A stretch of 64,000 nucleotides of DNA, from NCBI RefSeq assembly GCF_024300645.1, contig NZ_CP101291.1:1736001-1800000 (forward strand), written 5' to 3'. Positions 17,516-19,256 of this stretch are shown here, in pieces. The stretch comes from Alteromonas sp. LMIT006. Lineage in GTDB: Bacteria; Pseudomonadota; Gammaproteobacteria; Enterobacterales; Alteromonadaceae. The notes below the pieces were generated by a model. The model searched no databases, had not been told where the DNA came from, and saw only the letters and a list, made by a program, of their open reading frames with translations. Position numbers and translations under genes: made by a program. Numbering within the stretch: the stretch's first letter is position 1; each line of letters starts with the position of its first letter.

Positions 17516-17887
17516 TTACCAAGGTCCGTATACTACATTATTTGTTTTGGTTTGTGGTGCTTTGGTCAAGTGTACTAAATTCACTCGCTTATTTTTGCAC
17601 AGCATGGTTAGGTTAAACAGCTCAGAGGCAGTAAAAGAGTGTTGTTCTATGTACAGGGTATCGACTTGTTGTTGAGATACGATCTTTACGCAATAATCAA
17701 ACACCATGTCTTTTGCAGGTTTCTGGATACGAATGCCATGGGTTTGTGTATCACTAAAGCGCAACGTATCAGACAATAAATAATTCCACTTACGAGCCAC
17801 TTTGCCAGTTTTTAATGAACTAGAAACGTTAGCAAGTATTTGCGGAGCAAAGTCTGTTGTATTAATGTGTTGTGTGTGCAGTGACAT
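17516..17887 (-). CDS. SOS-controlled SulA-like protein (putative cell-division inhibitor)
   Basis: 123 residues, no signal peptide or membrane segment. Sequence identity to known SulA is low. The C-terminal ~65 residues can be laid on SulA's without gaps in the key part: RIQKPAKDMVFDY (SulA QISQLSPCHTVES), VDTLYIEQHSFTASELFNL (SulA [20 protein letters not shown]) and VNLVHLT (SulA MGFIMRP). Upstream are two LexA-type boxes and a good promoter between and across them, which is strong independent support for an SOS role. SulA blocks FtsZ after DNA damage; that function is inferred here, not shown. It is shorter than E. coli SulA (169) mainly at the N-terminus. Single-gene unit, convergent with the FMN-binding gene. 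Confidence 0.65.
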   Translation of the reverse strand: MSLHTQHINTTDFAPQILANVSSSLKTGKVARKWNYLLSDTLRFSDTQTHGIRIQKPAKDMVFDYCVKIVSQQQVDTLYIEQHSFTASELFNLTMLCKNKRVNLVHLTKAPQTKTNNVVYGPW

Positions 17888-17898
17888 CTCTATACCTA

Positions 17899-17918
17899 TA
17901 CTGGTTAAATAAACAGTA
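17899..17918 (-). promoter_or_regulatory. LexA box 1 (proximal)
   Basis: TACTG-N10-CAGTA with CTG at 17901-17903 and CAG at 17914-17916, 11 bases upstream of the SulA-like ATG. It is the core of a longer perfect palindrome (13-bp arms, 17891-17903 and 17914-17926). Confidence 0.85.
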
Positions 17919-17923
17919 TAGGT

Positions 17924-17952
17924 ATATTAGTACTGTGTTTTTATACAGTCAA
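17924..17952 (-). promoter_or_regulatory. Promoter of the SulA-like gene
   Basis: Read on the minus strand: -35 TTGACT (17952-17947), 17-bp spacer, -10 TAATAT (17929-17924). The predicted start near 17917 falls inside LexA box 1 and the -35 overlaps LexA box 2, an arrangement that fits tight repression. Confidence 0.7.
17931..17950 (-). promoter_or_regulatory. LexA box 2 (distal)
   Basis: TACTG-N10-CAGTC with CTG at 17933-17935 and CAG at 17946-17948; N10 is AT-rich as in the LexA consensus. Centre-to-centre distance to box 1 is 32 bp, about three helical turns. Confidence 0.82.
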
Positions 17953-17960
17953 ATGTTTTT

Positions 17961-19256
17961 TTACTTGGTACCAAATAAATTGTGGTGCATTTTAAAAGCA
18001 TACTCGTCAGTCATACCGGCAAGATAGTCAACGATTGCCCGTTTTTCCAAGCCTATTTCACGGTTTTTCAGCCATCTGCGGTAAGTGTTCGTCGGCAGTA
18101 ATCGTTCGGGATCAGACTGAAAAGCTTGAAATAATTCAATGACAATTTGCTGCCCTCGATACTCTGCGATTTGCACATCTGTCGTTTGAATAACGTGTTT
18201 CCAAACAAATCCTTTGAAACTCAACAGGTCCTGTTTATCCGCATCGGGCAGTACCGCTTGAAAATCAAGTAAAGGGGTTTTGAAGCGTTCTTGGCGAGTG
18301 ATTTCGATAGCGGTTATGAAATTATTTACAATGGCACCAATGGCATTTTTACGACGATAACTCTCTTCGGAAAACAGCTCTTTTGCTAGAGTGTTAATGC
18401 GTTCGGATAAACGCGTGTTGTTGCGTTGTATGGGGGTAACGACTTCTTCCATAAATTGTGCAATATGAACTTTATGTAACACGATAGCGTCTTCCAAATC
18501 ATGGATCCCATATGCTATATCATCAGCAAGTTCCATGACGGAACAATCAAAACTTTTATACAGTGTTTTACTATGTGCATTAGGAATTTCACAGAAATCC
18601 ATGAATGTCTGAGCATCATCTTGGTCAATACCAGATAGCAACCATTCAAATACGTTTGCATCACACTGATACAGTCCTTTTGGTGGGATATAGTTTCGGG
18701 CAATAATTTCTCTGATGCTGCTAGCCTGACAATCAGGGTAGGGTGCACTTAGATTATCAAGATAATTTGGGTATTTAATCAGACCCAGTAAAGTACGTCT
18801 TGACAGATTCATACCATTGGCTTTGGTATAGGGTTCGAGAGCCGAAACGATGCGAAAGGTTTGTCCATTTCCTTCAAAACCACCGTTGTCTTTTAAAACA
18901 TAATTTAATGCAATTTCGCCACCATGGCCAAATGGCGGATGACCGATATCATGCGCCATACATATGGTTTCGATTAAATCGCTGTCCAAAGACAACATCT
19001 TTGACTGTGTTGGAAATTTAGAATTGAGTTGTTCGGTGATCCCTGCACCAATTTGAGCCGCCTCAAGTGAATGAGTCAGACGAGTGCGATAAAAATCATT
19101 AACCCCGATACCGTGTATTTGTGTCTTGGCTTGCAAGCGACGAAATGCAGCTGAGTGCATTACTCTTGCTTTATCGCGCTGAGCCGCACTGCGGTGGTCG
19201 CCGTCCCTTAAATCGGTTCTCGGTTGAAAACGTTGTTCCCAAATTTGGTGAGTCAT
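17961..19256 (-). CDS. dGTPase-like HD-domain triphosphohydrolase
   Basis: 431 residues, HD superfamily. RTRLTHSLEAAQIG supplies the first metal His, AHDIGHPPFGHGGE the His-Asp pair and following His residues, and the later ELADDIAYGIHDLEDA carries the last Asp. This is the dGTPase/dGTPase-like family that splits dNTPs into deoxynucleosides and triphosphate; the length matches the dGTPase-like branch rather than E. coli Dgt (505). Its start is close to the CheB-CheR gene's terminator, so it is transcribed separately. Confidence 0.9.
   Translation of the reverse strand: MTHQIWEQRFQPRTDLRDGDHRSAAQRDKARVMHSAAFRRLQAKTQIHGIGVNDFYRTRLTHSLEAAQIGAGITEQLNSKFPTQSKMLSLDSDLIETICMAHDIGHPPFGHGGEIALNYVLKDNGGFEGNGQTFRIVSALEPYTKANGMNLSRRTLLGLIKYPNYLDNLSAPYPDCQASSIREIIARNYIPPKGLYQCDANVFEWLLSGIDQDDAQTFMDFCEIPNAHSKTLYKSFDCSVMELADDIAYGIHDLEDAIVLHKVHIAQFMEEVVTPIQRNNTRLSERINTLAKELFSEESYRRKNAIGAIVNNFITAIEITRQERFKTPLLDFQAVLPDADKQDLLSFKGFVWKHVIQTTDVQIAEYRGQQIVIELFQAFQSDPERLLPTNTYRRWLKNREIGLEKRAIVDYLAGMTDEYAFKMHHNLFGTK

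Follow-up and report, generated by a model that had tools for sequence, protein, structure and literature searches.

SulA is LexA-regulated and blocks FtsZ; in Escherichia coli its C-terminal histidine is recognized by Lon, and residues R62, L67, W77, and K87 are important. A SulA-like protein, ImuA, is part of the imuA-imuB-dnaE2 cassette, is longer than 210 residues, and carries an N-terminal RecA-like part. According to the accessible part of one report, SulA sequesters FtsZ by binding its T7 loop (PMC4929429). SosA of Staphylococcus, which we liken to SulA by description only, has a similar role as a proposed SOS-induced division inhibitor in the accessible part of another (PMC6851548). 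We describe here a gene of 123 codons, the length given in a preliminary description of this DNA, located within a 64,000-nt stretch (the window) of Alteromonas sp. LMIT006 (NZ_CP101291.1, positions 1,736,001–1,800,000), whose genome comprises a single 2.53-Mb contig. The gene, from a Glaciecola-like bacterium, is quite probably an orthologue of sulA and a member of a diverged, LexA-controlled, FtsZ-sequestering subfamily. The first of two alternatives in the preliminary description, a diverged, N-terminally short SulA-type division inhibitor, is supported by bridging profiles, chromosomal slot, operator layout, tree, and predicted fold. The likeness to described SulAs (PF03846/TIGR00623; E. 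coli b0958; P. aeruginosa PA3008, 1OFT, 1OFU) lies in putative control by LexA boxes, a predicted SulA/RecA core fold, apparent ancestry through bridge proteins, and the single stand-alone gene.

The window protein fell below the cut-off of every curated SulA model that we tried. Pfam and NCBIfam searches with the protein gave no SulA match, a PF03846 search of the window genome gave no match, and across 24 members of its subfamily SulA models from the two collections appeared once each (E 0.85 and 0.037). Such recognition is a diagnostic rather than a biological criterion. The closest homologues in named records were from Glaciecola sp. metagenome-assembled genomes (93% and 72% identical; two of 32 candidate stretches were confirmed). 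Used as a single query, the protein had matches in 25 of 98 relative genomes, its own included; the sole match in one of them (G010) falls in an unrelated frame. A profile of the 24 members (A1), from which two weak matches in unrelated frames (L025 and L026) were left out, had matches in 95 of 295 genomes of the family, 72 of them at E < 1e-20; the other 23 matches were weaker and include SulAs and the bridge proteins described below. In an order-wide search of 295 genomes A1 had matches in 12, counting its own; 11 belong to the same family, and the twelfth match, the only one seen outside it, is marginal (E 9.6e-4, in a 303-residue frame). A1 is a diverged subfamily; in the genomes sampled it is clade-wide and restricted to a single clade of the Alteromonas family. 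We found no description of it in the literature that we searched. If our reading is true, a clade in which curated models report no SulA has a division checkpoint for DNA damage, altered past recognition.

Descent from SulA is suggested by a set of five intermediate proteins (L087–L091; A3, the bridge set), which match profile A1 at E 3e-14 to 2e-13 and three of which end in -LH or -VH, as in SulA. Profile comparison with SulA, a check proposed in the preliminary description, gave a link through this set: hhalign probabilities were 98.9% between A1 and the bridge set, 96.5% between the bridge set and a SulA set (A2), and 79.8% between A1 and A2 directly, with a maximum of 2.2% in a column-shuffle control (60 draws each). 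A2 holds 13 sequences, each above the Pfam cut-off; it leaves out L053 (broken frame), SulA-length L027, L032, L044, and L055, and ImuA-length matches, "ImuA" being a label given by length and resemblance and not by a model. Searched against the PDB, A2 found the P. aeruginosa SulA structures (E 4e-20 and 9e-20), profile A1 only ribosomal proteins (E 0.63 and 0.85), and the window protein itself (phmmer) only matches with E above 1. A gap-free alignment to SulA over some 65 residues, reported in the preliminary description, holds for about residues 49–110, with a gap immediately before. Taken together, the profiles point to common ancestry with SulA.

Structure prediction, the second check proposed, gave a SulA/RecA-like core for the window protein. 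RecA was highest by Z in a fold comparison (VIA) of the model, and for this reason we do not use fold alone to favor SulA over RecA. The protein departs from RecA itself in its 123 residues, inspection by eye showed no Walker A motif, and recA lies elsewhere in the window genome. In a 52-protein tree rooted with six ImuA sequences, A1, the bridge proteins, and a further slot protein (c24, below) formed one clade (support 99/96) within a paraphyletic SulA; support is weak at several of the deeper forks, and long branches are numerous. An unrelated SOS orphan, its likeness to SulA being convergence on a common alpha-beta sandwich fold, would have to account for this nested tree, the shuffle controls, the bridge proteins in the same slot, and the shared operator; we find it scarcely credible.

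The two LexA boxes before the gene lie exactly where the preliminary description had placed them (TACTGGTTAAATAAACAGTA, proximal, and TACTGTGTTTTTATACAGTC, distal; Table 1). Their spacing is 32 bp, about three helical turns. L002 keeps the proximal box, L003 and L004 have it altered at one to three positions, and the distal box is kept, with changes, in L002–L010. In the window, ACTGT-N9-CAGT is confined to these boxes (three strand-matches versus 0.45 expected), a count reached in two of 100 shuffled windows. Genome-wide, the pattern occurs at 17 distinct places (14 forward and eight reverse, versus 10 and nine in a backward control), so hardly above the control that the bare pattern is not significant. 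An AT-rich center (at least seven A/T among the nine central bases) is found at six of the 17 places, which form three pairs: at the window gene, at umuDC and a divergent YebG-like gene, and at recA (neighbors named by eye from translations). The argument for LexA therefore rests on AT-rich centers and neighbors and not on the count of the strict pattern; the strict pattern with an AT-rich center was not seen at a lexA gene in the window genome. These features suggest that the gene, like sulA, is under LexA control, through two boxes.

Position in the chromosome also ties A1 to SulA. After clustering of neighboring genes (gene names in the slot were given by eye), a common slot emerged with dgt and/or msrP-msrQ on one side and ychJ and c7 on the other; dgt, msrQ, or ychJ lies at most 1.5 kb away in all 24 A1 loci. 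The same slot holds all five bridge proteins and a Pfam-positive SulA (L096), and ychJ adjoins six of eight Pfam-positive SulA-length loci fetched from the family (L043, L045, L047, L048, L052, and L055; L038 and L046 are the exceptions). The neighborhood of c9, ychJ, and c7 is common to A1 and slot-mate SulAs such as L096, L043, and L047, which, unlike A1, score above the Pfam cut-off and retain in full the segment joining core strands 1 and 2. At ten loci from the genus of the window no ychJ was seen, and a PNPOx-like gene and tatD are in its place; the window gene is flanked by dgt and the PNPOx-like gene. This arrangement is tied to the rest via c24 loci, which read dgt-msrP-msrQ-c24-PNPOx-tatD.

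Slot genes share an operator layout as well. A pair of LexA boxes that share five bases (TACTGTATATCCATACACTGTATAAA-like) stands upstream of slot-mates L096 and L093 (the latter below the Pfam cut-off) and, with changes, of L055, L043, and L048. The layout recurs in A1 at L017 and L022 and, with changes, at L013, L015, L018, and L024, so that the SulAs L096 and (with changes) L043 have it in common with A1 genes; the E. coli sulA operator, TACTGTACATCCATACAGTA, has a CC center in common with it. The window gene has two separate boxes rather than an overlapping pair. Slot and operator together support a position orthologous to that of sulA. Upstream of most non-Glaciecola A1 genes (L013–L024, L069–L081) lie three consecutive LexA-like sites, in each of which one half is good and the other poor, within about 60 conserved bp (TTGCATGTTTATTTATACAGTACTACTGT...). 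In genus g3 (L092, L094, L095) the slot protein is c24, more diverged, with the same deletion as A1 (below) and without GPW; the operator of L094 resembles that of other slot genes.

Operator alone cannot separate SulA from ImuA, because the overlapping layout is also found at ImuA-length L028 and, with changes, L030. ImuA is SulA-related and has a related core, ImuA-length frames score in PF03846 searches, and GPW, the C-terminal motif of A1, occurs near the C terminus of four of 13 ImuA-length proteins read (L030, L031, L037, and L041; hand count), a tail common to these SOS proteins and A1. These points would suit an accessory protein for translesion synthesis, ImuA-like but shortened. We nonetheless consider that identity very unlikely. 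The tree places A1 inside SulA and apart from ImuA, although support for the ImuA split is only 81/86, and ImuA frames among those read have at least 213 residues, unlike the 123 residues encoded here, with dgt and a PNPOx-like gene as neighbors. Neither PF03846 nor A2 has any match in the window genome. Among the 72 genomes with strong A1 matches, 60 have A2 matches, all 62 of them in frames of at least 222 residues, so most A1 genomes carry a separate ImuA-length gene.

The same comparison suggests that A1 stands in for SulA. None of the 72 strong-A1 genomes has an A2 match of SulA length, the frames found being of ImuA length or unrelated; a SulA-length match (cut 215 residues; 150 rows counted) is present in at least 128 of the other 223 genomes of the same draw. 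We rely on these counts alone, since the Fisher value for the contrast is inflated by descent.

Two features set A1 apart from SulA, besides a shorter N terminus. First, all 14 SulA rows have 25 residues in the stretch equivalent to residues 67–91 of E. coli SulA. Among A1, bridge, and c24 proteins the stretch has 17 residues in 29 of 32 rows, and 15, 16, and 21 in the remaining three, a loss of about eight residues between core strands 1 and 2. In the model of the window protein, strand 34–38 is followed by strand 51–54 with no helix between; the helix and loop that SulA has there are thus predicted to be missing. Second, A1 proteins, the window protein among them, end in GPW and not in the histidine of E. 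coli SulA: GPW lies within the last seven residues of 40 of the 42 distinct A1 C termini of fetched loci and is exactly terminal in 36. Together with an IRIQKP-like motif and VEN, it is one of the new conserved motifs of A1, and it probably substitutes for the Lon-marking histidine. The accessible part of one report has P. aeruginosa SulA as a Lon substrate despite an end unlike the E. coli degron (PMC12221181), so a changed C terminus does not by itself imply a changed fate, nor is the histidine strictly defining for SulA. Two points go further than the preliminary description: the core is shortened in addition to the N terminus, and the protein is one of a subfamily that spans its clade and conserves GPW at its end.

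We also compared FtsZ across these genomes (L147–L176 and L178–L217). NVDFADV, the motif of the T7 loop, is the same in all 30 genomes compared and is present in the FtsZ of the window genome. Residue 268 differs. F268C in E. coli FtsZ gives resistance to SulA and MinCD, as stated in the accessible part of the source (PMC10714956). This position (E. coli numbering) is Pro in all 23 A1 and bridge genomes, Leu in all four g3 genomes, and Met (28) or Leu (seven) in the 35 other family genomes sampled, where the SulA type of 32 "cl" genomes and of g3 genome G011 was taken by label and not per gene. Outside the A1 and bridge genomes, Pro at 268 was absent among 71 sequences, E. coli included. Sixteen FtsZ columns, including 268, 270, and 271, separate A1 from SulA genomes, and four, including 268, are fixed differently in g3 versus A1 plus bridge. 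In the FtsZ tree the genomes with A1, bridge, and g3 proteins fall into a single clade (84/97; a long branch, G068, lies beside it), and because of this shared descent the correlation at 268 amounts to at most two events and is confounded. Moreover, the deletion and Pro268 are not linked without exception, since g3 has the deletion with Leu. The pattern is a lead on joint change, not proof. We had not expected the deletion in the core, the conservation of GPW at the C terminus, or the parallel change in FtsZ.

Under our preferred reading, LexA bound to two boxes over and beside the promoter would keep the gene off. Upon DNA damage, RecA filaments would trigger LexA cleavage, the small RecA-like-fold protein would be made, and, if ancestry is a guide, it would bind and sequester FtsZ and delay division. 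The SulA–FtsZ interface is probably remodelled, given the loss of about eight residues between the first two core strands and the difference at FtsZ 268. Some of these observations count against FtsZ sequestration: the segment between core strands 1 and 2 is deleted, new motifs (IRIQKP-like, VEN, GPW) have arisen, and FtsZ 268 is altered in the same genomes. They would fit a SulA descendant, still SOS-controlled and SulA-folded, whose target has changed, for example to another division or repair protein. We regard such a change as unlikely, as no other SulA-length A2 match occurs in any of the 72 genomes, NVDFADV is unchanged, and slot and operator are retained, which suggests the same job.

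Within FtsZ sequestration by SulA, a bolder proposal is that the clade re-engineered the interface, the SulA core deletion going with a change of FtsZ 268 to Pro, and again to Leu in g3, and GPW serving as a turnover tag; we offer this tentatively, as a doubtful though not negligible possibility. If true, nature would here offer an example of an inhibitor and the essential target that it acts on evolving in concert. If our main reading is true, the natural series from full SulA through the bridge to the GPW form could indicate which part of SulA is needed to stop FtsZ, and inform how inhibitor and essential target change together.

The window protein had no relative in a plasmid collection, the L014 relative had none in a phage collection, and none was found in viral contigs by a search sensitive to close relatives only; a mobile-element reading was dropped for these reasons. 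PHROGs returned nothing usable, and a PADLOC match to GajB (E 0.001, 15.6 bits, 59 residues of a 738-position helicase model), with no other support, was judged to be chance.

Table 1. Positions in the window of the sulA-type gene, its putative control elements, and its upstream neighbor
Feature	Positions	Strand	Remarks
SulA-type gene, diverged, 123 residues	17516..17887	minus	stop 17516-17518; homologues, bridge to SulA, predicted fold
LexA box, proximal, TACTGTTTATTTAACCAGTA (minus-strand reading)	17899..17918	minus	
LexA box, distal, GACTGTATAAAAACACAGTA	17931..17950	minus	over -35 hexamer
Putative sigma-70-like promoter TTGACT-17-TAATAT	17924..17952	minus	9/12 matches
Palindrome, 34 bp, 12-bp perfect arms	17892..17925	minus	centered on proximal box
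dgt (HD-domain dGTPase-like, cluster c2)	17961..19256	minus	upstream syntenic neighbor; named by eye; outside claimed function

The promoter, which the preliminary description had put under both boxes, is present and its -35 hexamer and spacer are covered by the distal box, whereas the proximal box lies just 3' of the -10 hexamer. It is weak on its own, because a 9/12 score is not above chance (2.0 such sites are expected in that stretch). The palindrome centered on the proximal box is predicted to form a hairpin at the 5' end of the mRNA (-12.4 kcal/mol, z -2.45), extending to the AGG of the likely ribosome-binding site. A leader hairpin is also predicted in L003 (-12.9 kcal/mol) and L002 (-16.2 kcal/mol).
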